Assembly: GCA_017560125.1 (NCBI GenBank)
Contig: JAFYOS010000018.1
Coordinates: 1 to 64,000 of the forward strand
Length of the DNA: 64,000 bases
From: Bacteroidaceae bacterium
Lineage (GTDB): Bacteria > Bacteroidota > Bacteroidia > Bacteroidales > Bacteroidaceae
Direction: 5' to 3'
The notes under the pieces: model-generated
Told to the model about the DNA's origin: nothing
Database searches by the model: none
Seen by the model: only the letters and a program-made list of their open reading frames with translations
In this document: positions 24,747 through 48,171 of the stretch, in pieces
Layout: every line of letters begins with the position of its first letter
How positions within the stretch are numbered: position 1 is the stretch's first letter
Position numbers and translations under genes: made by a program

Positions 24747-25940
24747 ATGAATCAATTAGCAGACCGTTTAAACAGATTATCGCCTTCGGCAACATTGGCG
24801 ATGTCTCAGAAAAGCCAGGAGCTCAAAGCTCAGGGCGTAGATGTTATCAATATGAGTGTGGGTGAGCCCGATTTCAACACACCCGATGCCATCAAAGAGG
24901 CTGCCATCAAGGCGGTAAACGATAACTTCTCGAGATATTCACCCGTTCCCGGTTACCCTGCATTGCGCAACGCCATTGTAGAAAAGCTCAAAAAAGAGAA
25001 CGGACTCGAATATACAGCAGCACAAATTTCGGTATCAAACGGTGCAAAGCAGTCGGTGTGCAACACCATCATGGCACTTGTAAACCCCGGCGACGAAGTA
25101 ATCGTTCCCGCACCTTACTGGGTAAGCTATCCCGAAATGGTGAAACTTGCCGACGGTGTTCCCGTAACCATCTACGCTGGAATTGAGCAGAATTTCAAGA
25201 TAACAGGTGCACAGCTCGAGGCTGCCATCACTCCCAAAACAAAAATGATTATCCTGTGCTCACCCTCAAACCCCACAGGTTCGGTATATAGCAAGGAGGA
25301 ACTTAAAGAGCTCGCCGACGTATTGGCAAAATATCCCAATATCTTCATTGTAGCCGACGAAATTTACGAGCACATCAACTACATAGGCAAGCACGAGAGC
25401 ATTGCACAGTTCGAGAATGTACGCGAGCGCGTAATCATCGTTAACGGTGTTTCAAAGGCCTATGCAATGACAGGATGGCGCATTGGTTTCATCGCTGCTG
25501 CCGAGTGGATTGTGAAGGGATGTAACAAGCTCCAGGGACAATACACCAGCGGCCCCTGCTCAGTATCGCAGATGGCATCGGTAGAGGCTTACGTGGGCTC
25601 ACAGCAGCCTGTAGCCGACATGCAGAAGGCATTCCAGCGCCGTCGCGACCTCATCGTGAAGCTCGCCAAGGAGATTCCCGGACTCGAGGTAAACGTGCCC
25701 GAGGGTGCATTCTACCTGTTCCCTAAATGTAGCTCGTTCTATGGAAAAAGCTACAACGGCCAGACTATAAACAACTCTGACGACCTTGCAATGTATCTGC
25801 TTACAGAGGCACACGTAGCAACCGTGGGTGGTACATCGTTCGGCGCTCCAGACTGCTTCAGAATGAGCTACGCAACAAGCGACGAAAACATCATCGAGGC
25901 TATAAAGAGAATAAAAGAGGCGCTTGCAAAGCTTCAGTAA
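24747..25940 (+). CDS. Pyridoxal-phosphate aminotransferase, class I (aspartate aminotransferase-like)
   Basis: A fold-type I aminotransferase of 397 residues, most like the Ib aspartate (or aspartate/prephenate) aminotransferases. Signatures are SVGEPDFNTPDAI near the N-terminus, the cofactor phosphate-binding SNGAKQSV, the SNPTGSVYS loop with its Asn, and the PLP-lysine motif GVSKAYAMTGWRIGF (Lys237). The C-terminal Arg for the substrate carboxylate is in CFRMSYA. It transfers amino groups between aspartate and 2-oxoglutarate, or related acids. It lies 12 nt after ribBA and ends at a strong terminator, the last gene before the proposed origin. Confidence 0.9.
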   Translation: MNQLADRLNRLSPSATLAMSQKSQELKAQGVDVINMSVGEPDFNTPDAIKEAAIKAVNDNFSRYSPVPGYPALRNAIVEKLKKENGLEYTAAQISVSNGAKQSVCNTIMALVNPGDEVIVPAPYWVSYPEMVKLADGVPVTIYAGIEQNFKITGAQLEAAITPKTKMIILCSPSNPTGSVYSKEELKELADVLAKYPNIFIVADEIYEHINYIGKHESIAQFENVRERVIIVNGVSKAYAMTGWRIGFIAAAEWIVKGCNKLQGQYTSGPCSVSQMASVEAYVGSQQPVADMQKAFQRRRDLIVKLAKEIPGLEVNVPEGAFYLFPKCSSFYGKSYNGQTINNSDDLAMYLLTEAHVATVGGTSFGAPDCFRMSYATSDENIIEAIKRIKEALAKLQ

Positions 25941-25965
25941 CAGGAATCACATCCTAATACAATAC

Positions 25966-26001
25966 AAAATCCTGTACGATATGTCGTACAGGATTTTTTT
26001 T
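25966..26001 (+). terminator. Intrinsic terminator after the aminotransferase gene
   Basis: A perfect 14-bp stem (AAAATCCTGTACGA / TCGTACAGGATTTT) with a 4-nt loop is followed by a run of T. It closes the LptF/G-ribBA-aminotransferase transcript and shields the AT-rich region beyond. Confidence 0.9.
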
Positions 26002-26888
26002 ATCTATAAAATGGCAAAACGAAGTATTTGTAAATACCTACTTCGATAGCATAACAATTTAAGGATAGATTTTGTTCACGGAAAAGCACATTTTTTTTGA
26101 AAAAAAGATAATCAACTGTTATTGTCACCACGCAAAAATTACATTGCAAAAATAATGCACATTATTGAAAACCTGTTAATAGCAAAATGTAATGTATTCG
26201 TTGTACACAGATTAAGCTATTAAAAATGTTTTTCACAGGCTGTTAACAACAGCGAAAAAATCACTAAAAACTACAATATGCACACGAACCGAGCAACCAA
26301 TATAAACCATTTTGTTGATAACCGTTAAAAAAGTATTAAAAAGCGTTTGATAACGTACTGAAAACTCGGAATAAAAAAATGGTAATTATATTTTGATAAA
26401 AAGGATTCATGTCATATACAGGATCCACATCCAAAAATGCAAATTGATAACCCGTTTTTTTTACATGAACTTGTCATGGGGTTTTTAACAGAAATCAACC
26501 ATGTTAAAAGCACCAATTTATCAATATGCAAGATTATAAACAATGTGTTGATAAAATATATAATGCGTTGTAATATACAATTATAGGACTATAATAACGT
26601 GTGGAAAAACATGGCGCAAATATTGATAAGATAAATTCAAATTTTAGGCCTATGGAATTATCAATATTATCAACAGCTATTATTCTTATATTTTTCCTTT
26701 TTATATTTTATAAAAGAACATAATTATATAAAAACAAGTTTATAACTGATAACATGGATAAAGGTAGTGGGGGAGTGTGCTACCGCTTGTAACAAGTTTT
26801 ATAAAAAATACTAAAATATTTCTGCATAATAAATTAAATTATCTATATTTATAGCCAAATTAGGGGACCCCCGCAAAATAGGATAATT
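26002..26888. other. Candidate chromosomal replication origin (oriC)
   Basis: Gene-free AT-rich stretch of about 890 bp. Exact TTATCAACA boxes (DnaA-box-like, one base from TTATCCACA) occur at 26667-26675 and, on the other strand, at 26313-26321 and 26546-26554. Near matches include 26229-26237, 26391-26399, 26442-26450, 26518-26526, 26600-26608, 26621-26629, 26658-26666 and 26753-26761. A run of nearly pure A/T at about 26,680-26,750 could be the unwinding element. GCTGTT/AACAGC forms a small hairpin at 26239-26253, and GGTAG/CTACC flanks a G-rich core at 26763-26784. GGGGACCCC occurs 17 nt before the next gene. Plus-strand composition changes here from A-rich to T- and G-rich. dnaA itself is not in the window. 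Confidence 0.65.
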
Positions 26889-28232
26889 ATGAATTTGAAA
26901 TCGATTTTAGGATTACTGTTTATGGGCGTTACAGCCTTTTCGGGCACATATGCCCAGTCGGATACCATTCTACTCAAAGGCAATGGATATATAACAACGC
27001 CGGATGCCGAATCAACCATTCTGAAGCGTGAGAGAATGCAGCGCCCTCCGCGTTCGCGCCAATTGCCTGGCAGAGCTCCTGTCGCATACATTGACGAGCA
27101 CAATGGAGGTGTAGGAAACTGGCACGACAAAAATAATATAATAAGTACATATTTTCATGTAGAGAAGCCAGGCGAAATGGAACTGAAAATGGAGGCGTAC
27201 GGTCATTCTACAATCACGGTCACCTGCTTGGGCAAGACCAAAAACATAAAGCTCAACAGCGACAAGCCCGCCATCTACAAGATAGGCAAGTTCAAAATAA
27301 AGGATGCCGGTCATGTAAAGGTGGATATACAGGGAAAAAAATGTAACAGCGACGCGGGCTTCGGAAATGTGCTCAGCCTTATTGTAAATGGCAATTTGGG
27401 CGAGCTCGCATACATTCGCAAGGATTATCACCCCCATTTTGGACGTCGAGGCCCTTCGGTGCACCTCAATTACCGCCTTCCCAAGGAGAACACCTACGAA
27501 TGGTTCTACAACGAGGTGACCGTTCCTGCCGACTACGACCGCGTGAGCAGCTACTACATGGCTTGTGGTTTCGGTGAGGGGTATTTCGGATTCCAAAACA
27601 ATTCGCCCGAGCGCCGCAAAGTGCTCTTCTCGGTGTGGAGCCCCTATGTAACCGACAACGCCAAGGAGATTCCCGATTCATTGCGCATAAAACTGCTGAA
27701 GAAGGGCGAAACGGTGAATGTGCAGGATTTTGGTGGCGAGGGTTCCGGAGGACAGAGCTTTATGCCCTATGACTGGCAGCCCGGAAAGACATACAAATTC
27801 TTGATGCGTGTGCGTCCCGATGGAAACGGCAGTACGGTCTATACAGCCTATTTCTGCGATGAAACCGACGGAAAATGGCGACTGATGGCAAGCTTCCTGC
27901 GTCCCAAGACCGATACATGGTACACCAATCCCCACTCATTTCTCGAGAACTACAACCCCCTGATGGGATACAGAACACGTCGCGCATGCTACAACAACCA
28001 GTGGGCGTGTACAAAAGAGGGCGAGTGGATACCTGTAACCGAAGCGGTCTTCACACACTGCGACACAGGTAAGAATGGCAAGCGTCTCGACTACACCGGT
28101 GGAGCCGACGAAAACGGTTTCTACCTGATGATGGGCGGATTCTTCGATGGCTACACAAAGGGTTACACACGTTTCACCCGTAAAAACGGCATAGGCGAAA
28201 AACCCAATATAAATTTCAATACATTAGAATAA
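26889..28232 (+). CDS. Exported DUF3472 (with DUF5077-like N-terminus) protein
   Basis: A 447-residue protein with a signal peptide ending ...SGTYAQ (about residue 23). The N-terminal third is a beta-sandwich resembling DUF5077, and the rest (from about NYRLPKENTYEWFYNEVTVP) matches what I know as DUF3472, a domain found in exported Bacteroidetes proteins near glycan-degrading enzymes. Aromatic-rich motifs such as GFGEGYFGFQNNSPERRKVLFSVWSP suggest carbohydrate binding; no catalytic site is recognisable. It lies 28 nt before an M60 peptidase gene and probably shares its transcript. There is no sorting tail, so the protein is probably periplasmic. Confidence 0.78.
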   Translation: MNLKSILGLLFMGVTAFSGTYAQSDTILLKGNGYITTPDAESTILKRERMQRPPRSRQLPGRAPVAYIDEHNGGVGNWHDKNNIISTYFHVEKPGEMELKMEAYGHSTITVTCLGKTKNIKLNSDKPAIYKIGKFKIKDAGHVKVDIQGKKCNSDAGFGNVLSLIVNGNLGELAYIRKDYHPHFGRRGPSVHLNYRLPKENTYEWFYNEVTVPADYDRVSSYYMACGFGEGYFGFQNNSPERRKVLFSVWSPYVTDNAKEIPDSLRIKLLKKGETVNVQDFGGEGSGGQSFMPYDWQPGKTYKFLMRVRPDGNGSTVYTAYFCDETDGKWRLMASFLRPKTDTWYTNPHSFLENYNPLMGYRTRRACYNNQWACTKEGEWIPVTEAVFTHCDTGKNGKRLDYTGGADENGFYLMMGGFFDGYTKGYTRFTRKNGIGEKPNINFNTLE

Positions 28233-28260: not shown

Positions 28261-31200
28261 ATGAAACATTTATTTTACACAACTATAATCCTGTTTGCAG
28301 CAGTGCTTTCGTTGCATGCACAGATTATACCCGAAGAGAATGCCGTTTACCGATTGGTAAATGCCGGTAGAACAAATGCTGTAATGACGGAAGATATTAC
28401 GGCGCACAACATCTATTGTACCGACAACGGTGGCGATGAAAGCTACAATCAGCTGTGGCAGTTCAAGAAGAGCGGTCAGGGCTGGAATATACAAAATGTA
28501 AATACAGGATACTACGTGCAGAACCAATCTACCGTATATGCCCTCTTTACAACAGCTACCACCCCCAAGGTGTTTTATGTATCGCAGAACAGCACCATAG
28601 CCGGTAAGTATAATATAGTAAACACCAACGGCGGTAATTTCGGTATGCACTGCGATGCTGCCTACGACGTTGTACCCTGGTATTCGGGTACCGATAATAC
28701 CCCAGGCGGTTCGGAATGGATATTCGAAAAGGTTGAATTGTCCGAAGAGAAGATAACCGAGATACGTGCAAAATACAACGAATTCAACGATGTTATTGTA
28801 AATAAGGACAAGGTTATTTCGGCCTATACAAAACTGTTCGAGGATGACCTTTGCACCACGCTCAAGAGCGAATATGCCTCTATGAGCGACGCCGAGCTCG
28901 AAGCGGCAATGAGCGACTGTAACAGCACCCTCGTTGCAGCTGCAAAAAAGATAAAGAACGATTCGTGGGCTGCACGCGAAAAGGAATTCCGTGTTCACAC
29001 CTACGAACCCTATAGCAATCCCGATTATTGGGCAACAAAAATAAATATCAGAAAATATTCGTGGCTCAACAACCCCACAGGTATATATGCAAACACCGGC
29101 GATGTAGTCTATGTATTCGTCGGAGCGGATATCCCCACAGGTGCTACATTGCAGATTGATGCTATTACCGGAAATTCACCCTCGGGCACCAGAACAGAGC
29201 TCAAGAAGGGTATGAATATAGTAGCCGTGTCACGCGACGCGCAGAGCCTCTTCATTCTCTATACAGCCGATACAAGCGGCGATAAAGTACTATCTGATTT
29301 CGCTTCCCTCCCCATCCACATCGAGGGTGGAGTAGTGAATGGTTACTGGGACAAGAGCCGTCACACCGATGCCGATTGGGTGGACATCACACGTAACCTT
29401 GCCACACATCGTTTCATGGTGGTGAAGGGTGACCACCACCTCTTCTTCATGAACCGCGAGTATATGATCGCCGATAACTGTTGCAAGAACACAATTACCG
29501 ACGCCATCGGCTGGTGGGACAATATGTCTATGTGGCAGCAGGAGCTTTTGGGCATCGAGGAGTACAAGCCTTCGCGCTTCAATAACAAGCAGTGTGCCAT
29601 TTCGCTCTCTACGGGCTACCAGTCGGCTACCGACTACCGCACACAGTATGCCGAAAACTACATCACCAATCTGCTCCCATATAGCAGAATGATGTCCAAC
29701 GGCGACAATGTGTGGGGCCCCGCACACGAGAACGGACACATTCACCAGTATGGAATAAACATGATTGCATGTTCCGAGGTCAGCAACAACCTCTTCTCGA
29801 ACCTCACTCTCTACAAGCTCGGAAAATATATGTCGCGCGGAGGCAAGGTTTCGGATATGGTGGCAGCGTATGAGGATAATATAGCATTCCCCGCGCGTGA
29901 CATCAATTACACACTGCGCATGTTCTGGCAGCTCTATCTCTACTATCATGTAGCAGGTAACAACCCCCAGTTCTATCCCACACTGTTCAAGATACTTCGC
30001 AACGATCCCATGAAGAAGACATCAGGCTCGCTCAACTATGCACGCTACGACCTTCTCCACTTTGCCGAGAAGTGCTGCGAGGCATCGGGCGAGGACATGA
30101 CAGATTTCTTCGAGGCGTGGGGATTCTTTGTACCAATGAACAGAGCCCAGTTCGATGATTATGGAACATATCAGCTCACATCAACACAGAGCATGATAGA
30201 CACCACTAAGGTGCGTATTTCGAAATACACCAAGAAGGCCGGTGCCATACAGTTCATCGAAGACCGCGTGCGTCACGAGCTTCGTGGCGATGGAGCAGAG
30301 GGTTACAAAGTGACAAACGGCGTTGCAGTGGGCGAGGCTGGTGATGTAGGTCACTACACAGCCTTTGTTCCCGACTCGATGAACCAGTCGGCAATCGGTT
30401 ACGTATATTCCAAGGCCGGAAAAACAGTCGATTTCTCTAAGGGAACAGGCGCTGTAGGCTTCAAGATTTATGACACCGATGGTCGTTTGCTTACATTCTC
30501 GAACTACACTTCAATAGAGCTTTCCGACGAGGTTGCTACCAAAGAGATTGTTATCATGGCAGTGGCTGCCAACGGCACCGAGACCGTCGTTAATTCGAAA
30601 ATAAATGGTAGCGAAGAGGATCAGATTGAGGCGCTCAACGATGCTATCGCTTCGGCACAGAGCATTATCAAGCTCAAAGACAAGGGCAATAAGTATGTAG
30701 GTTACTACTACGAAAGCGTGCTCGAAAACCTTGTAGCCACATCGGATAGCGCCAAGGCTGCCATCGACGACAAAGACCAGAGTGTGCGTACTTACGGTCA
30801 GTGGGCTGCGCTCATCGATCAGGAGATAAATGTAATATTGGCCAACCCCGATGCACGTGTGAAGATACATTCGGGCAATTCGTACCAGCTGAAGAATATG
30901 CTCTACTCGGGATATTCAATGTACAACAATTCGGGCAATATCGTTTGCGAGAGCGGAACCAAGAATGCCAAGTACAGAGCATTCCAGTTCGTTTCCACAG
31001 GCAAGCAGAATGAATATTACATTTCGAACAACGGTAGCTACATAAATACCGTGGCTACAAGCTCGCAGACAAAGGCATCTACCACTTCGCAGTCGTCTGC
31101 ATTGAAATTCACGGTAGGTGAGGCCGGCGACGGTAAATACTATGTATGCGTTACAGGTGAGAGCATGAAATCGCTCCATTGCGATGCTGCCAAGAAGGTT

Positions 31201-31665
31201 GTAGGATGGAACACCACTGCGGATGCATCGCTGTGGCAGCTTGTTGCCGTAGATCAGCAGAAGGAGCTTGCCGACGTTGCAGAGCTTGAAGCCCTTATGG
31301 CCGAGGCAAACACCATCTATGGCGATATAGTCGATTCAACAGCTGCTTCAATCACCTTCAAACAGGGTGTGGAAGTGACAAGCACCACACTTGCCGAGGA
31401 TGTAGCCGCCATGATGGACAAGGTAGCTGAGTCGCAGTCTGTAATAACCAAAAAGTATTACGAGCAGTGTCCCAAGCTCATCACCACTCTTGCCGAAATA
31501 GTAGCAAAAGTGAAGGCGGGATATACCGTAAGCACAGGAATAGGTAATGTGATATTCGACGAGAAGGATAGCGTGATATACGATATTCGCGGACGAAAAA
31601 TTAAGCAGATTACCAATCCTGGATTCTATATTATAAACGGCGAAAAAGTATATATAAGCAAATAA
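28261..31665 (+). CDS. M60-family (enhancin/mucinase-like) metallopeptidase, copy 1
   Basis: A secreted 1,134-residue zinc protease. The order is: signal peptide (to about residue 20, LSLHAQ), ricin/beta-trefoil-like lectin region (about 25-160), helical linker, and peptidase M60 region (about 240-640) with HENGH at 489-493 and the third zinc ligand Glu506 in CSEVSNN. A beta domain (about 680-780), a helical FIVAR-like region (about 790-860), a second lectin-like domain (about 870-1000) and a sorting-signal-like tail with VIYDIRGRKIKQ and FYIINGEKVYISK follow. Known M60 enzymes of gut bacteria cut O-glycosylated mucins. It is followed by a terminator and a paralogous gene. Confidence 0.88.
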   Translation: MKHLFYTTIILFAAVLSLHAQIIPEENAVYRLVNAGRTNAVMTEDITAHNIYCTDNGGDESYNQLWQFKKSGQGWNIQNVNTGYYVQNQSTVYALFTTATTPKVFYVSQNSTIAGKYNIVNTNGGNFGMHCDAAYDVVPWYSGTDNTPGGSEWIFEKVELSEEKITEIRAKYNEFNDVIVNKDKVISAYTKLFEDDLCTTLKSEYASMSDAELEAAMSDCNSTLVAAAKKIKNDSWAAREKEFRVHTYEPYSNPDYWATKINIRKYSWLNNPTGIYANTGDVVYVFVGADIPTGATLQIDAITGNSPSGTRTELKKGMNIVAVSRDAQSLFILYTADTSGDKVLSDFASLPIHIEGGVVNGYWDKSRHTDADWVDITRNLATHRFMVVKGDHHLFFMNREYMIADNCCKNTITDAIGWWDNMSMWQQELLGIEEYKPSRFNNKQCAISLSTGYQSATDYRTQYAENYITNLLPYSRMMSNGDNVWGPAHENGHIHQYGINMIACSEVSNNLFSNLTLYKLGKYMSRGGKVSDMVAAYEDNIAFPARDINYTLRMFWQLYLYYHVAGNNPQFYPTLFKILRNDPMKKTSGSLNYARYDLLHFAEKCCEASGEDMTDFFEAWGFFVPMNRAQFDDYGTYQLTSTQSMIDTTKVRISKYTKKAGAIQFIEDRVRHELRGDGAEGYKVTNGVAVGEAGDVGHYTAFVPDSMNQSAIGYVYSKAGKTVDFSKGTGAVGFKIYDTDGRLLTFSNYTSIELSDEVATKEIVIMAVAANGTETVVNSKINGSEEDQIEALNDAIASAQSIIKLKDKGNKYVGYYYESVLENLVATSDSAKAAIDDKDQSVRTYGQWAALIDQEINVILANPDARVKIHSGNSYQLKNMLYSGYSMYNNSGNIVCESGTKNAKYRAFQFVSTGKQNEYYISNNGSYINTVATSSQTKASTTSQSSALKFTVGEAGDGKYYVCVTGESMKSLHCDAAKKVVGWNTTADASLWQLVAVDQQKELADVAELEALMAEANTIYGDIVDSTAASITFKQGVEVTSTTLAEDVAAMMDKVAESQSVITKKYYEQCPKLITTLAEIVAKVKAGYTVSTGIGNVIFDEKDSVIYDIRGRKIKQITNPGFYIINGEKVYISK

Positions 31666-31743: not shown

Positions 31744-34700
31744 ATGAATCGTTATTTTTATCTATTTATTTCATTCTTTATTGGTGTGCTTACAGTGGGA
31801 GCACAGAATTTTCCCGAGGATGGTGCCATATATCGCATATCGAACACCGTCAGGGACAATTCGGTGTTGGTAGAGAATTACATGACACACCAACTGAAGG
31901 GTGGAACAAAAAAAGAGGGCGAGGCTGCCCAGTTGTGGCTTTTCAAGCAGAATGGCGAGGGCTGGAACATACAGAACGTGTTCACCGGCCGCTACATTAA
32001 GATAGAGACCAGCAACAGCAAGCTCTATACAACCGACACCGAGGATGTCGCACTGGATGTCTTCTATGTATCGCGCAATAATAACTACACCACTGAGTGC
32101 TACAATATCGTGAACAATAAGGGTGGAAATTATGGTATCCACTGCGAGACAGATGGCGACATAGTGCCTTGGTACGCCTCTACAAGCTCGTTTGACGGCT
32201 CGGAATGGACATACGAAAAGGTCGATTTTACGGCAGAGGATATAGCCAAGGTGCGCGAAAATTATTATAAATTCAACGAGCTTCTGAGCAACCGCGAGCA
32301 GATAATGGAGAAGTACTCGGCCTTTTTCGAGGACGAATCATGCTCACAGCTCAAGAGCGAGTACACCTCTATGAGCGACGATGAGCTCACAGCGGCTATG
32401 GAAGGCTGTGGCGAGTCACTTATTTCCATTGCCCTAAAGGTGAAGAATGGCTCATGGGGTAAGCGCGAGCTCGAATTCCGTGTAAATTCTTATGGTCCTT
32501 ACACTGACCCCGACTACTGGGGCGAGAAGCTCAAGACCAAGTACTACTCGTGGCTCAACAACCCCACAGGCATCTGTGCCGATGCTGGAGATATGCTCTA
32601 TATCTTCGTGGGTAAGGAGCCCAAGGAGGGCTCTACTCTTGAGCTCGACCTCATCAACGAGAACAACCACAAGACCGAGCGTGTGCAGCTTAAAAAGGGC
32701 CTCAATATCATTCCTGTGGTCAAGAGCGACCGCTCGCTCTTCATCGTCTATACAGCCGATACAAAGAAGGACTACGTTCTAGCCGATTTTGATTCCATCC
32801 CCATTCACATCGAGGGTGGTTATGTAAATGGTTACTGGGACAAGGGACGCCACAACGATGCCGACTGGGTAGATATCACCCGCAACCTGGCCAAGCATAA
32901 ATACATATTCATCAAGGGCGACTATATGATGCTCTTCATGAACCGCTCGTTGCTTATTTCATCCGATGTGTGCCCCAATACCATCAGCGATGCAATCAAC
33001 TGGTGGGATAATATGTCTATGTGGCAGCAGGGCATCATGGGACTGGAGGAGTATATTCCTTCGCGTTTCAATAACAGGCAGTGCGGCGTTTCGTACGAGG
33101 GTAGCGGACTGATGTCGGCAACCAACCACGTAACCAATTATGTCGAAACCTGCCTCCACGATGTAATGTCGTACGAGGATGTGATGGAGACCAGTGGACA
33201 CTGCTGGGGACCTTCGCACGAGGTGGGACACGTACATCAGGGTGCGATAAACATGATTGGCTGCACCGAGGCGAGCAACAACCTCTTCTCGAATATTGTC
33301 CTGTTCAATCTGGGCAAGTTTGTTACATGGGGCGACGGTGTCGATGTGATGGCTGAATACTACGTGGATGATGTCGCATGGAGCCTTCAGGGCATCGGAC
33401 TGAAGATGCGCATGTTCTGGCAGCTCTATCTCTATTACCATGTGGCAGGAAACAATCCCGATTTCTATCCCACGCTCTTCAAGCTGTTGCGCAAGGATCC
33501 CATGGAGAAGACATCGGGCAGCAGCAACGACAACAGCGCACGCAACGACCTTCTGAAATTTGCCGAGAAGTGCTGCGAGGCATCGGGTGAGGATATGACC
33601 AAGTTCTTCGAGGCATGGGGCTTCTTCAAGCCTATGTCGCGCGCAGTCATCGATGATTACGGTACATGGGTGATAAATTCAACCACCCGCATGATAAGCG
33701 ACACCAAGAAGAAACTGGCAAAATATACCAAGAAGGCGGCTGCGATAGAATTTATCGAGGATCGTGTAGCACCCACACTCCGCACCGACGGCGGCGAGGG
33801 ATACAAGCTCGAATATGTAGAGGGTAAGTTCGGCGAGCTCGGTCTTTACACAGCCTATATGACCGATTCAATCGATGTGGTGGCAAACGGTTATGTCTAT
33901 ACAAAATCGGGCAAGCAGATAACCTTCTCAAAGGGTGGCAGCGGTGCAGTAGGTTTCAAGGTGTATAACAGCAACGACGAGCTGCTCACATTCACCAACA
34001 GATATTATGTCAACCTCACCGACGAAATGATATCACAGGAGTTCAAGGTGGTGGCTGTGTCGGCCAACGGCACCGAAACTGTGCTGAAAACAAAGAACGA
34101 GGGCACCGAGGAGGAGCAGTTCGAATCGTTGAACGAAGCCATAGCATCGGCCGAATCATATCTTAAAATGAAGGACACTGCCTCGAAGAATGTAGGCTAC
34201 TTCTTCGAAACGGTTCTTATAGACCTTACAGCAGTTACAGATAGCGCGAAAGCCGTTGTAGAGCACAAAGACCAGAGCGTGCGTACATATGGCCAGTGGG
34301 CTATTCTCATCGACAAGGAGATATCGGAGCTATTGGCCAACCCCGACAGTCGCGTGAAGATACAATCGGGTAATACCTACCAGTTGTACAATATACGATA
34401 TACCGATTATACAATGTACTGCGAGTCGGGTAAGCTTACATGCCAAAAAGGTACATCAACCCCCAAGGCACGTCGTTTCACATTTACCTCCACAGGTAAA
34501 GAGAACGAATATTACATTTCGAACAACAGTTCCTATATAAATTTCATAGGCCGCAGCCAGCAGGCAACAGCATCTACCACCAAAAAGAGCGAGGCACTGA
34601 AATTTACCGTAGGCGAGCACGGAGTGGGCCGGACATACATCTATAAGAGCGGTGATACCGACCTTGGAATCCATAGCAGCCAGCAGTATGTAATCGTTGG

Positions 34701-35163
34701 CTGGAACCACGACGAAGAGCCTTCGCTGTGGCGTCTTGTAACCGTTGATGCCAAAAAAGAGAAAGCCGATGCGGCTGCATTGAACGAGCTCATAGACGAG
34801 GCAACCGGAATATACTATTCTATAGTGGATACCACCAACGCGGGCTCTGTTACATTCAACGATGGCGTCGAGGTGGTGAGTGCTACCCTTGCAGCCGATG
34901 TAGAGGCCATGATGGCCAAGGTGGCCGATTCACAGGAGGCTGTTACCAATAAATACTATAACCTGTGCCCCGCGCTCATAGAGGAGCTCACAGCGGCTAT
35001 TGCCACCGTGAAGGCTGGTTACACCGTGAATACCGGCATAGGCAATATTGCCATCGACGAAAAGGCATCTACCATATACGATATCCGCGGCCGCAAGGTG
35101 GAGCGTATAACCGCTTCGGGTTTATATGTGGTCGATGGCAAGAAGGTGTATGTAAATAAATAG
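31744..35163 (+). CDS. M60-family (enhancin/mucinase-like) metallopeptidase, copy 2
   Basis: A 1,139-residue paralogue of the preceding gene with the same layout: signal peptide ending GVLTVGAQ, ricin-like N-terminal domain (GWNIQNVFTGRYIK), M60 region with HEVGH at 492-496 and the downstream Glu509 in CTEASNN, beta domain, helical region (HKDQSVRTYGQWA shared with copy 1), a second lectin-like domain, and a type IX-like tail (YDIRGRKVERITASGLYVV). Active-site residues are intact, so both copies should be active. The best-conserved parts are the M60 core and tail and the most divergent parts the lectin regions, which may change glycan preference. It ends at a perfect terminator hairpin. Confidence 0.88.
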   Translation: MNRYFYLFISFFIGVLTVGAQNFPEDGAIYRISNTVRDNSVLVENYMTHQLKGGTKKEGEAAQLWLFKQNGEGWNIQNVFTGRYIKIETSNSKLYTTDTEDVALDVFYVSRNNNYTTECYNIVNNKGGNYGIHCETDGDIVPWYASTSSFDGSEWTYEKVDFTAEDIAKVRENYYKFNELLSNREQIMEKYSAFFEDESCSQLKSEYTSMSDDELTAAMEGCGESLISIALKVKNGSWGKRELEFRVNSYGPYTDPDYWGEKLKTKYYSWLNNPTGICADAGDMLYIFVGKEPKEGSTLELDLINENNHKTERVQLKKGLNIIPVVKSDRSLFIVYTADTKKDYVLADFDSIPIHIEGGYVNGYWDKGRHNDADWVDITRNLAKHKYIFIKGDYMMLFMNRSLLISSDVCPNTISDAINWWDNMSMWQQGIMGLEEYIPSRFNNRQCGVSYEGSGLMSATNHVTNYVETCLHDVMSYEDVMETSGHCWGPSHEVGHVHQGAINMIGCTEASNNLFSNIVLFNLGKFVTWGDGVDVMAEYYVDDVAWSLQGIGLKMRMFWQLYLYYHVAGNNPDFYPTLFKLLRKDPMEKTSGSSNDNSARNDLLKFAEKCCEASGEDMTKFFEAWGFFKPMSRAVIDDYGTWVINSTTRMISDTKKKLAKYTKKAAAIEFIEDRVAPTLRTDGGEGYKLEYVEGKFGELGLYTAYMTDSIDVVANGYVYTKSGKQITFSKGGSGAVGFKVYNSNDELLTFTNRYYVNLTDEMISQEFKVVAVSANGTETVLKTKNEGTEEEQFESLNEAIASAESYLKMKDTASKNVGYFFETVLIDLTAVTDSAKAVVEHKDQSVRTYGQWAILIDKEISELLANPDSRVKIQSGNTYQLYNIRYTDYTMYCESGKLTCQKGTSTPKARRFTFTSTGKENEYYISNNSSYINFIGRSQQATASTTKKSEALKFTVGEHGVGRTYIYKSGDTDLGIHSSQQYVIVGWNHDEEPSLWRLVTVDAKKEKADAAALNELIDEATGIYYSIVDTTNAGSVTFNDGVEVVSATLAADVEAMMAKVADSQEAVTNKYYNLCPALIEELTAAIATVKAGYTVNTGIGNIAIDEKASTIYDIRGRKVERITASGLYVVDGKKVYVNK

Positions 35164-43563: not shown

Positions 43564-46500
43564 TTATTCTGCGTTTCTTACAACAATCTTCTTCTTGTTT
43601 ACGATATACACGCCGGGAGCAGTAATCTTCTCTATTCTGCGTCCGGTGAGGTCGTAAATCTCCTTCTCGCCGTTCTCGTCGCACTCAATAGATTCGATGC
43701 CTACTGTCGAATCGTACACAACCGAGATGCTTGATACCGAGCTTGATGATCCAGGGAGCTTCTTGATGTTCATCTCGAAGGGTGCCAATGTGCCGGCCTG
43801 TGATGCCTTCAGATATTTGTCGCTTCCCTTGATGAAGGTGTTCAGTTTGTAGCTTGTGCCTACATACGACATCAACAGATAGTCGGTTGCCATATCCTCC
43901 TTGCTGCTTGCGCCCATTGTTACGTTGGCGGCTGTAGCATTGATGCTGCCTCCGTTGGCCACTGCGAACATGGGGGTGTTCACCGCAAATTCGGTCTTGG
44001 CGAGTGTGAGGGTGCTCACTCCGTCAATCTTGCCGAACTGATAGGGAGCAGCCACTGTAATTTCGCTGCCGGGGGTGAAGGGGAGTGCCAAGGGGCGTAC
44101 ATCGTCGGCCTCGGCGTTGATGTCGGTGTAGTTCACCGCAGCGGCAGTAAACTGCTCGGGTACATAGTATATCGAGCCATAGTACATGTCGAACTGCTTG
44201 CAGTTACCATCCTTGTCGACCACGTTGCTGCCGGCTGTTGCGGCTGTCGCAGCGTCGAGGCTTGTGTAATATACGGCATTGCTCTGTGCAAGCATCTCCT
44301 TGCTCTTTGCAATCCATTTGAGTGCATCGGCACAATCCTTCAGGTCGATGAACGACGCTGTCTGCTCGCCACCGATGAACAGGTTGCTGTCGTCGGCCAT
44401 CTGCTTGCCATAGGGCTTTCTGCCAAAGGGCTCGCCGGCTGTCGATGCAAGCAGTGCGTTGTCGCACTTCGCAACCTTCTCCAGACGGTAATAGATTTTG
44501 TTGTTGCTGCTCATCTTGGGATATGTAGCTGTACCGTTGAAATTAGCTGTACCGTTCGAGATAGAGAAACCGAGCTTTGTGGTGTCGAGGTGCAATGTAT
44601 ATTTTACAGCCTCGCTGCCACCCATTGCTTCGATGTATGAGCTGCCATAGAGAGCGCAGCTGCTGCCGGCGTTGAATATGTAGTATTCGTTCTCAGCACC
44701 GGTGGGGATGAATGCCCACATCATGTAGTCGTCATCTTCACCCTTCACAGGCTCCTTGTGTACCACGTAGTTGAGATATCTCTGTGCAGAACGCTCAACC
44801 GACAGGTATTTGCTGTTGTCGGGGTTGTAGATGTAGTACCATGTGATACCCTCGGTGATGTCGCCGGGATAGCTGGGGATTACACCATACGCACTCTGTA
44901 TTGCTGTTATCGCTGCAAACAGCTTCTCGGCAGCAGCGGCATAGTCCTGAACCGAACTGGTGGCGCGAACAGCCTCGGTCGATGCGGTTTCTGCCACAAG
45001 CGCAGCTGCAAGGTTGTAAATGTTCTCGTCCTTCACAAGGATATTTTCGTTGAGCACGTAGTTGCCGCCTGCAAGCTCGTCGGCCTTCAGCAGCTCGCCG
45101 GTTATCTCCTTGGCGGTTGTGATAGCCGAGTCGATAAGCTGGGTGTCGTATGCGCTCTGGTTGTCCTCGGCCACTCTTATAGCCCACCAGCTGCTCTGTG
45201 TCTTGTACTCCTGTCCCTGGATGGTGTTGTCGCTCTTCAAGGCAACGCAGTTACCATGTTTGTTATCCTGCTCCAAGTACAAGTAACCGTTCTGGAGCGA
45301 TACAATGCGGAACTGTATTGCCGAAGCCTTGTCGGTGGTGACGGTTCCGGGGTTGTTCTTGGGCATTGACGCTATGTAGAAGCCACTCTGGTTCTTTACG
45401 TAGTAGAGGCTGTCGTCGGTTGTCACGAACATCCATTTTTTACCCGCGTTGGAGTTACCACCCTTCGATACATTGAATACCGAAGCGTTGGCGTTGAGCA
45501 GGTTCTGCGAATTGCTCTTGGTAATCAGGTTGTAGTAGTTCTTGGGCTGTATCTTTATTATCGAATTCGATGTGTAGATCTTGCTCAGCTCGTTGTCGAT
45601 GAGTGTAAGATACTCGCCATAGGTGTGTGCGCTCTGGTCGGCGTTGTCAACGGCAGCCTGTGCCTCTGCTTTCAGCTCGGCAAGGCGGGCTGTCTTTTCG
45701 GGATAGTAATATCCTACCTTGTTGGAGTTCTTGTCGGTATATTTTGTGTAGTACTCGATGGTGGTGAGTGCATATTTGAGCGCTTTGAGCTCGGCATCGG
45801 CACCTGTCTCGGCGTAAGGTTTCAGTACAACCTCGTCGCCGTCACCCTCGGCTGCCACAATCTTGATGCCGGGGTCGGCTGCAAGCGCTTCGGGGATTGT
45901 GAATTTGTGGGTGTTCGACATGGCCTTGTATTCGCCCTTGCCGTTGTACACCTTGAAACCTACCGCGCCGGTACCCTTCTCGATGATGATGGTCTTACCG
46001 ATTTTTGTGTAGCTGTAGCCTACTGCCTCGGGAGCTGCGCCGGGTGCAAAGTATGTGTACTGACCAACCTCGCCGCACTGTCCGATTGCAAGGTCGCTCT
46101 GGAACTTATTGCCGGTGCCACCGTCTGTTCGTGCGATGGGCTCGATGCGGTCCTCGATGAACTCGATGGCGGGTGCCTTGCGGCTGTATGTGGCCATCTT
46201 GGCAAGTGTCTTGTCTATCATCTCTTGTGTCACGGTGAGGTCTTTCCATGCAGCCTCCTTGTCGGTGAGCTGGTGGATGGGACGGAAGTATCCCCATACC
46301 TTGAAGAATTCGGTGAGGTCCATATTGGCTGCCTCGCAGCACTTCTCGGCAAAGTGGAGGATGTCCTTGTTACCCTGTACGTGTGTGGGCGATACATCGA
46401 TACCGTCTTCGCGCAGCAGAGCGAACAATTTGGGATAGAACTCGGTGTCGTTACCTGCCATGTGGAAGTATTCGTACAACTGCCACCATATTCTCATTCG

Positions 46501-48171
46501 GCTCTCTCCGAGCATGCTTGCCCAGGGTTTGCTCTGTGCAAAATCGCGGCTCAAGGTACCGATGGTGTCACCACGTGACATGTATCGACCCATCTTATAC
46601 ATTGTGAGATTGGCAAACAGGTTGGCGCTAAGCTCGGTTGTACCGATTGTCTGGATTGAACCCTGATGTGTGTGTCCAAGCTCGTGACCGGGGCCCCACA
46701 CGTTGTCGTGGTTCGACATCACGGTGTTGTAGTTGAGCAGCTTGTAGAGGTATTTCACACCATACTGTGTGCGGTAGGCGGTAGATGCCTGATAGGTGTG
46801 CTCGTCGTCGAGCGAGATGGCGCAGTGCAGGTTGTTGAACTTCACGCCATAAATGCCCTTGTCCCAACCGAGGAGCTCGTGGTCCCATTTGAGCATATCG
46901 TCCCACCAGCCTATAGCGTCGGTGATGGTCTCTTTACAGCAGTTGCTTGCTGCAATCCATTTTCTCTCCATGTGGTAGAGCACGCGCTCGCCCTTCACCT
47001 GTATCACGTGGTGTGTAGCGAGGTTCTGTGTGATGTCGCGCCAGTCCTCGTCGGTGTGACGGCTCTTGTCCCAGTAGCCGTTCACTACTCCGTTCTCGAT
47101 GTGAATCTTGATGTTAGGGTAGTCGGCTATTACCTTACCGCTGTTGTGTGTGTTTACATCGTAGCGTACAAAAATGGTCGAATTGTCGAAGCTGATGGGG
47201 ATGATGTTAAGACCTACACGCAGTGTATCGATGACGCCGTTGGTCTCGGTGTTCACAATCTCCTCAATACCGAGGAATGCACCGTCGGCAATTTCACCCT
47301 CGACGAATACATAAATCATTTCGTTGGCGCGACCATATATACCTGTGGGGTTGTTCAGGTAAGAGTACTCGTTGGCCTGCAGTATCTTGTGCCATTCGTC
47401 GGCATTGGCATAGGGCTGGTACTCTCTCACGCGGAATTCCTTTTCGCGCTTGCCCCATGTGTCGTTCTTTATCTTGAGCGCCATGTTTACAAAAACCTCG
47501 GGAAGCTCCTTCATGGCCTCTTTGAGCTCGGCATCGCTCATAGCTGCACATTCGGCCTTGAGCTCCGAGCATGAACCGTCGGTGAAGAATGCGCCAAGCA
47601 TCTGGTTGTACTTGTCGGCATTCTGCGATATCTGCTGCTGGTTGCGGAAGCTCTCCTGTATGGCTGCGAGCTCTTCGATGCTTATGCCTGCATCCTCGAA
47701 TACCCACTCGGTGGAGCCGGGCTCACCCGCTGTGGTCGATGAATACCAAAGTACAACCTCGTTGAAGGGTGACGAGTGCATACCTCGTGTCTCGGTAGCT
47801 GTGGGCAGAAGGTTGTAGAAGCCTTTATTGGGCTGGTTCTCCTTGATGTAGAACTTGGCAGGTGCCTCGGCCATTCTGAAGTAGCCCGACAACTGCGATA
47901 CAGGCTGCACGTAGTTGCCTGTAAGTCCGTTCTTCACATAGAAAGCGTTGTTGTCGGCTGCTTCGAGAACCCACATCTGCTCATAGGCGTTGTTGCCTTT
48001 GGGCATGGTCTTAATCATGTTCTTTTTGTAGTCTGCCGACATACATTGATAGTCTTTGCCGGGAGTAAGGATCCTGTATGCCTTGCCGGCTTCAGGGACT
48101 GAGTACTGTCCCCATGCAACGCTGCAGCAGAGCAGTGTCGCCAATGTCAAAAATAAGAAATTTCTTAGCAT
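43564..48171 (-). CDS. M60-family (enhancin/mucinase-like) metallopeptidase, copy 3, extended
   Basis: A 1,535-residue paralogue of the two upstream M60 proteases, about 400 residues longer. Signal peptide to about residue 21 (SVAWGQ), ricin-like domain (about 25-170), M60 region with HELGH at 496-500 and downstream Glu513 (GTTELSANLFAN), the shared beta domain (KGTGAVGFKVYNGKG), a helical region and a lectin-like domain. The extra C-terminal part holds another lectin-like segment (ITWYYIYNPDNSKYLSVE) and a beta-rich region (about 1380-1490) before the sorting tail IYDLTGRRIEKI / PGVYIVNKKKIVV. The catalytic residues are intact. It lies alone on its transcript, with a 312-bp upstream gap. Confidence 0.87.
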   Translation of the reverse strand: MLRNFLFLTLATLLCCSVAWGQYSVPEAGKAYRILTPGKDYQCMSADYKKNMIKTMPKGNNAYEQMWVLEAADNNAFYVKNGLTGNYVQPVSQLSGYFRMAEAPAKFYIKENQPNKGFYNLLPTATETRGMHSSPFNEVVLWYSSTTAGEPGSTEWVFEDAGISIEELAAIQESFRNQQQISQNADKYNQMLGAFFTDGSCSELKAECAAMSDAELKEAMKELPEVFVNMALKIKNDTWGKREKEFRVREYQPYANADEWHKILQANEYSYLNNPTGIYGRANEMIYVFVEGEIADGAFLGIEEIVNTETNGVIDTLRVGLNIIPISFDNSTIFVRYDVNTHNSGKVIADYPNIKIHIENGVVNGYWDKSRHTDEDWRDITQNLATHHVIQVKGERVLYHMERKWIAASNCCKETITDAIGWWDDMLKWDHELLGWDKGIYGVKFNNLHCAISLDDEHTYQASTAYRTQYGVKYLYKLLNYNTVMSNHDNVWGPGHELGHTHQGSIQTIGTTELSANLFANLTMYKMGRYMSRGDTIGTLSRDFAQSKPWASMLGESRMRIWWQLYEYFHMAGNDTEFYPKLFALLREDGIDVSPTHVQGNKDILHFAEKCCEAANMDLTEFFKVWGYFRPIHQLTDKEAAWKDLTVTQEMIDKTLAKMATYSRKAPAIEFIEDRIEPIARTDGGTGNKFQSDLAIGQCGEVGQYTYFAPGAAPEAVGYSYTKIGKTIIIEKGTGAVGFKVYNGKGEYKAMSNTHKFTIPEALAADPGIKIVAAEGDGDEVVLKPYAETGADAELKALKYALTTIEYYTKYTDKNSNKVGYYYPEKTARLAELKAEAQAAVDNADQSAHTYGEYLTLIDNELSKIYTSNSIIKIQPKNYYNLITKSNSQNLLNANASVFNVSKGGNSNAGKKWMFVTTDDSLYYVKNQSGFYIASMPKNNPGTVTTDKASAIQFRIVSLQNGYLYLEQDNKHGNCVALKSDNTIQGQEYKTQSSWWAIRVAEDNQSAYDTQLIDSAITTAKEITGELLKADELAGGNYVLNENILVKDENIYNLAAALVAETASTEAVRATSSVQDYAAAAEKLFAAITAIQSAYGVIPSYPGDITEGITWYYIYNPDNSKYLSVERSAQRYLNYVVHKEPVKGEDDDYMMWAFIPTGAENEYYIFNAGSSCALYGSSYIEAMGGSEAVKYTLHLDTTKLGFSISNGTANFNGTATYPKMSSNNKIYYRLEKVAKCDNALLASTAGEPFGRKPYGKQMADDSNLFIGGEQTASFIDLKDCADALKWIAKSKEMLAQSNAVYYTSLDAATAATAGSNVVDKDGNCKQFDMYYGSIYYVPEQFTAAAVNYTDINAEADDVRPLALPFTPGSEITVAAPYQFGKIDGVSTLTLAKTEFAVNTPMFAVANGGSINATAANVTMGASSKEDMATDYLLMSYVGTSYKLNTFIKGSDKYLKASQAGTLAPFEMNIKKLPGSSSSVSSISVVYDSTVGIESIECDENGEKEIYDLTGRRIEKITAPGVYIVNKKKIVVRNAE

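Follow-up and report, generated by a model that had tools for sequence, protein, structure and literature searches.

Where does replication of the chromosome begin in a bacterium whose draft genome holds no cluster of DnaA boxes beside dnaA? The question is raised by an AT-rich gap between an aminotransferase gene (aat) and a DUF3472 gene in the window, the 64,000-nucleotide stretch of a Bacteroidaceae draft genome that was analysed here. The original prediction had named this gap as a candidate chromosomal origin. Computational evidence supported that proposal, namely the box cluster, its conservation in the genus and a nearby turn of the GC skew on contigs, and we consider it very probable that the region is the chromosomal oriC of the organism, far from dnaA.

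Box cluster between aat and the DUF3472 gene

The candidate region, which runs from the terminator to the start of the DUF3472 gene (Table 1), contained 72 % A+T, and the only ORF of at least 80 aa to touch it was a 93-aa reverse ORF (26849–27130) lying mostly inside the DUF3472 gene; its earlier description as AT-rich and gene-free was borne out. The terminator proposed on its left was also found to be real, with a stem of 14 pairs and a terminator-like form on both strands. A search of Rfam over positions 25900–26950 gave no family at the cut-off, and four sub-threshold matches fell at or next to this hairpin.

Three exact copies of TTATCAACA on mixed strands, as predicted, were accompanied in the region by six copies with one mismatch. 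The means for 1000 dinucleotide shuffles of 26002–26888 were 0.036 exact copies and 0.8 copies with at most one mismatch, and none of these shuffles reached either three exact copies or nine with at most one mismatch. Likewise, none of 400 sampled anagram words of TTATCAACA reached either count, and by these sequence tests the region holds an intergenic DnaA-box cluster. Two details of the prediction needed adjustment: the cluster stood, but 'about ten near matches' was too high a number, six being present at one mismatch with two-mismatch sites left outside the count; and the A/T run was present, but at 86 % A+T 'nearly pure' was slightly strong. The names 'DnaA box' and 'trio' for these elements follow the papers cited below and common usage.

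The draft genome (2.61 Mb in 37 contigs) contained 60 exact copies of TTATCAACA, compared with 22 of the reversed word, and the tightest triple among the 60 was that of the window. The next-tightest triple, at C12:6066–7083, was rejected: all three boxes lay in ORFs of at least 100 aa, and the 4 kb examined there contained no box with one mismatch. The gene dnaA was located on another contig of the same genome (C22:55148), where there were at most two boxes (with at most one mismatch) per 800 b within 20 kb around it; an origin at dnaA was rejected because there was no box cluster there, and the placing of the candidate outside any dnaA context held.

The three genes for M60 peptidases in the window were all situated within 22 kb of the origin core, and several M60 peptidase genes adjoined the origin in other species of the genus too (loci L080–L086). 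The gene dosage of M60 genes in such a position would be high.

Table 1. Positions in the window of the candidate origin, its elements and the neighbouring genes
Feature	Position	Strand	Basis
Candidate oriC region, terminator to DUF3472 gene	26002..26888		Box cluster, genus conservation, nearby skew turn
Terminator-like hairpin, usable on both strands	25966..25997		14-pair stem
aat, aminotransferase class I/II gene, left neighbour	24747..25940	+	Pfam PF00155
DUF3472/DUF5077 gene, right neighbour	26889..28232	+	Pfam PF11958, PF16871
Near box TTAACAACA	26243..26251	+	Box scan
DnaA box TTATCAACA, exact	26313..26321	-	Box scan
Near box TTATCAAAA	26391..26399	-	Box scan
Near box TTATCAATA	26518..26526	+	Box scan
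Near box TTATAAACA	26534..26542	+	Box scan
DnaA box TTATCAACA, exact	26546..26554	-	Box scan
Near box TTATCAATA	26621..26629	-	Box scan
Conserved core of candidate origin, 135 bases	26622..26756	+	Alignment A2 (21 species), profiles R1, R2
Upstream element of core, family consensus AATAACTTAAAAAGCAA	26624..26642	+	Alignment A3, conserved in other genera
DnaA-box-like TTATCAATA, distal box of tandem pair	26658..26666	+	Box scan, core alignments
DnaA box TTATCAACA, exact, proximal box of tandem pair	26667..26675	+	Box scan
A/T run, presumed unwinding element	26676..26740		86 % A+T; unwinding inferred
Five DnaA-trio-like triplets	26679..26693	-	3'-NAN-5' rule of PMC8287927
M60 (enhancin-like) peptidase gene	28261..31665	+	Pfam
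M60 (enhancin-like) peptidase gene	31744..35163	+	Pfam
M60 (enhancin-like) peptidase gene	43564..48171	-	Pfam

Conserved core and the GC skew around it

Matches to aat at the threshold of E 1e-150 were found in 34 of the 44 genomes that made up the genus sample; the closest named relatives of the window gene were from Bacteroides (82 % identity). Thirty-three of these loci were examined (G084 was left out), of which 31 had 1200 b or more of sequence 3' of aat. Four or more boxes (with at most one mismatch) were present within 1.5 kb 3' of aat at 23 of the 31 loci, compared with one of 31 on the 5' side, and exact boxes numbered 30 on the 3' side vs none on the 5' side. The total of 177 boxes 3' of aat compares with a mean of 24.6 (sd 10.3, maximum 63) for 300 anagram words. 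Fewer than four boxes were counted at eight of the 31 loci, and at five of these the cluster had been displaced after rearrangement, in G092 and G061 to a place beside the DUF3472 gene approximately 17 kb from aat, and in G073, G074 and G090 to 3 to 6 kb from aat. The core of G020 lay 4 kb from aat. This check, proposed with the prediction, did not refute it: related species retained the cluster either beside the orthologous flanks or near them after rearrangement.

Rearranged gene order around the core was seen at loci L080–L083 (G092 and G061), L085 (G073) and L097 (G074), and looks like the outcome of inversions around the origin. In G092 and G061 the DUF3472 and M60 genes stayed with the core, the left flank was partly inverted and aat was about 17 kb away.

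Profile R1 was built from the 135-base core, its rows being 21 species of this genus alone; it matched the window at 26623–26751 (E 1.4e-13). One strong R1 match per genome (E 5e-13 or better) was found in 34 of the 44 genus genomes, as expected of an element present once per chromosome. Twenty-one of these genomes are rows of the model and 13 are independent of it; in the latter the core was 0.4–5 kb from aat in 11 and on a different contig in two (G064 and G097). The ten genomes that lacked a strong match (G065, G066, G067, G069, G076, G080, G082, G089, G098 and G101) were exactly the ten that lacked an aat match, and a missing contig is therefore the likely reason; contigs near the origin were perhaps lost during metagenome binning. 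Weak R1 matches (E 0.0016–0.0097) were obtained in four of the ten. The window's own genome gave a second weak match (G000:C13:200919–200984, E 0.003), probably by chance.

Alignment of the 21 species revealed a core that begins with an upstream element and continues with the tandem boxes, with T pairs whose conservation has a period of three, and with the A/T run. The upstream element was the best conserved part (mean identity 0.86, vs 0.79 for the boxes, in the 22 sequences of alignment A3), and outside the genus the values were 0.90 and 0.78, respectively; in the window's own genome this element has diverged from the AATAACTTAAAAAGCAA consensus. Three bases separate the end of the tandem boxes (26675) from the first of five triplets (26679), within the 16 b allowed between a box or tandem pair and triplets in a BUS (defined below). 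The middle A of each triplet, read 3' to 5' on the minus strand, corresponds to a T on the plus strand at 26680, 26683, 26686, 26689 and 26692, and the five exceed the three 3'-NAN-5' triplets required, for which the chance expectation is not low on a T-rich strand. Conservation by phase averaged 0.93, 0.70 and 0.66 over the 22 sequences of A3, a periodicity of modest significance (7 of 3003 column subsets reached this level, times three phases); among the 11 rows from other genera two phases were high (0.86 and 0.91) and one was low (0.58). The A/T run lies beside the boxes, as an unwinding element should, and is presumed from its sequence to act as one. Weak R1 matches on the opposite strand occurred at many core sites (for example, G085:C35:27443–27539 and G094:C159:8498–8598), which suggests that the core is partly dyad-symmetric.

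The GC skew was computed on contigs (the window's own contig, G096:C22 and G063:C14). The whole-genome skew check proposed with the prediction, run in this form, did not refute it: the cumulative minimum was 0.3 kb from the core in G063, 9 kb from it on the own contig and 15 kb from it in G096. On the own contig, where the left arm is just 26 kb long and the fall along it small, the skew decreased slightly to 17.5 kb, had a second low at 29.5 kb and then climbed to +4821, with the core at 26.7 kb. On G096:C22 the fall extended over 250 kb, with the minimum at 266 kb and the core at 251 kb, and on G063:C14, with a right arm of about 10 kb, the minimum was at 193.0 kb (core at 193.3 kb). The mean skew per 10-kb block was −0.048 to the left of the core (48 blocks) and +0.022 to its right (42 blocks), in agreement with the predicted difference in composition between the two sides. 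With gene strand modelled, the effect of the arm was 0.071 (se 0.009; 89 10-kb blocks, which are not independent). The skew changed sign on all three contigs, although fourfold sites alone did not show this: at those sites the skew tracked gene strand on both sides, with no sign change at the core. On G096, whose right arm is short, the minus-strand ORFs of that arm had negative skew. These last two observations, the short arms and the offsets of 9 and 15 kb weigh against the reading as an origin.

A DnaA-titration or DnaA-regulated site of the datA type, at which replication does not start, would account for the box cluster by itself equally well. We think this improbable in view of the skew changes near the core on three contigs, the single strong copy of the core per genome and the presence of an unwinding-type layout (tandem boxes, triplets and A/T run), all of which argue for the chromosomal oriC.

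Core beside nadA in other genera

At E 1e-3, R1 matched 64 of 201 genomes of the family, 52 of them outside the genus, and in 11 of the 18 other-genus genomes for which both places were known the match was no more than 400 b from nadA. A second profile, R2, was built from 22 sequences (11 from this genus and 11 from others); it matched the window at 26624–26705 (E 1.1e-8) and 44 of 61 genomes at E 0.01. Some nadA-associated sites are rows of R2, and none is a row of R1. Matches to R2 outside the genus at E 1e-4 or better were obtained in 31 genomes, 29 of which had nadA, its identity being checked by Pfam (PF02445). In 22 of the 29 no more than 400 b separated the core from nadA: in 20 it preceded nadA by 8–93 b on the same strand, and in two, G008 and G036, it lay 3' of nadA in the opposite orientation. 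In the remaining seven the core and nadA were on different contigs, the core match having E 2e-5 or better: G029 and G052 (g29), G006 and G034 (g7), G031 (g2), G045 (g20) and G003 (g4). Further moves of the origin are possible in these seven genomes, or contig breaks.

Near boxes 5' of nadA numbered 32, vs 3.6 expected, at the nine loci with a core there (17 of the 32 came from G005 and G033, and G005 was grouped by its box cluster), and 4, vs 2.4 expected, at the ten loci with a core elsewhere; 11 of the 30 loci fell in neither group. In the closed genome G005 the box cluster, at 2.6657 Mb, has nadA on one side and a gene of the sulfatase family on the other; the sampled skew had its detrended minimum at 2.635 Mb and its undetrended minimum at the start of the record. 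R2 missed the nadA site of G005, its sole match in that genome being elsewhere (E 0.0017).

Two broader generalizations and one sequence pattern were discarded. That the origin always lies beside nadA was ruled out by the seven split genomes and by the nadA loci of three genus genomes (G000, G020 and G046), which gave no core match. An aat-adjacent origin throughout the family was ruled out by 80 named aat loci, none with more than 82 % aat identity and thus outside the genus by that measure: none had as many as five near boxes in the stretch of up to 1.5 kb that follows aat, and R1 found no convincing match in the 52 of them that were searched (best E 0.02). The exact box-plus-TTATTNTT pattern was present in 21 of 151 genomes, scattered and uninformative. 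An apparent strand bias of boxes in two closed genomes was likewise dropped, being an artefact of forward-strand matches being enumerated first.

The position of the core 5' of nadA on the same strand in 20 of 29 genomes would suit a promoter or leader, that is, a regulatory element of the neighbouring gene (aat/DUF3472 here, nadA elsewhere) with boxes as a by-product. In this genus, however, the core occurs without nadA and has other genes as neighbours, G008 and G036 have it turned the other way at the 3' side of nadA, no Rfam family reached the cut-off around it in the window, and the skew turns near it; a regulatory element is accordingly a very improbable explanation. The neighbourhood of the origin differs between genera, as it might if the origin belonged to an integrated plasmid or other mobile element. 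This we find scarcely credible: the region is flanked by chromosomal genes of ordinary kinds (aminotransferase, ribBA, lptF/G type and ychF), the order lptG-ribBA-aat is present in other genera without the box cluster, no replication-initiator gene was recognised among the eight window proteins searched, and there is one strong core copy per genome.

As the same core was found at nadA in 22 of 29 other-genus genomes, the chromosomal origin of this genus has probably moved: on the simplest reading, which contig breaks limit, it would have lain near nadA ancestrally and have been transferred to aat/DUF3472 in this genus, other lineages having seen moves of their own. More tentatively, we suggest a portable Bacteroidaceae core whose AATAACTTAAAAAGCAA-like element, conserved more strongly than the boxes, may be bound by a factor for initiation or helicase loading that is specific to the lineage, and which may have moved as a unit (from nadA to aat/DUF3472, and elsewhere again in some genera) yet stayed the only origin.

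Proposed mechanism and comparison with known systems

By analogy with other bacteria, DnaA would bind the cluster of TTATCAACA-type boxes, and a DnaA-ATP filament would be laid from the tandem pair (26658–26675) onto the strand with the period-three pattern. The filament would then open the A/T run, where the replicative helicase would be loaded, as in other bacteria, and from which two forks would leave.

An oriC far from dnaA is common in Bacteroidetes according to PMC4755523, and the novelty implied by the original prediction was in this respect only partly right, such origins being already in print. Unlike these, a core at nadA in other genera was not found in literature searches. The open-access library that was searched yielded no paper joining nadA, oriC and Bacteroides, or quinolinate synthase, replication origin and Bacteroidetes, and none of the titles and opening lines of abstracts surveyed dealt with this origin core. 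Origins adjacent to nadA may already be included in DoriC, which is described as a collection of predicted origins (PMC6323995). The finding is ordinary in kind and useful in detail. A core profile able to find the origin in draft genomes of the family, where dnaA synteny fails, would let metagenome coverage report growth and allow origins to be compared across genera. Two matters are made testable, namely which factor recognises the conserved upstream element and by what route an origin relocates within a lineage.

For Prevotella intermedia OMA14, Ori-Finder predicted an oriC on the first chromosome that resembles the candidate origin as outlined in PMC4755523: it is from the Bacteroidales, has multiple DnaA boxes at a GC-skew transition, and is not near dnaA.

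A BUS, the unwinding system made up of DnaA box and DnaA trios, consists of a DnaA box no more than 16 b from three or more 3'-NAN-5' triplets (PMC8287927), and DnaA is loaded from the boxes onto the trios 3' to 5', stretching that strand (PMC6669920). Compared with the BUS as these two sources present it, the window likewise has tandem boxes followed by more than three such triplets within 16 b, a likeness of sequence. It differs in that the triplets are not mainly 3'-GAT-5', the commonest BUS form, in that the better box adjoins the triplets instead of lying upstream, and in possessing an additional conserved upstream element.

The nadA-adjacent cores (for example, those of G048, G022 and G009) differ from the core in the window in their neighbour, which is nadA and not aat/DUF3472, and in box words further from TTATCAACA; skew support for their origin function comes just from the sampled G005. 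In both, the upstream element is followed by tandem boxes and then by triplets, and one profile finds both.
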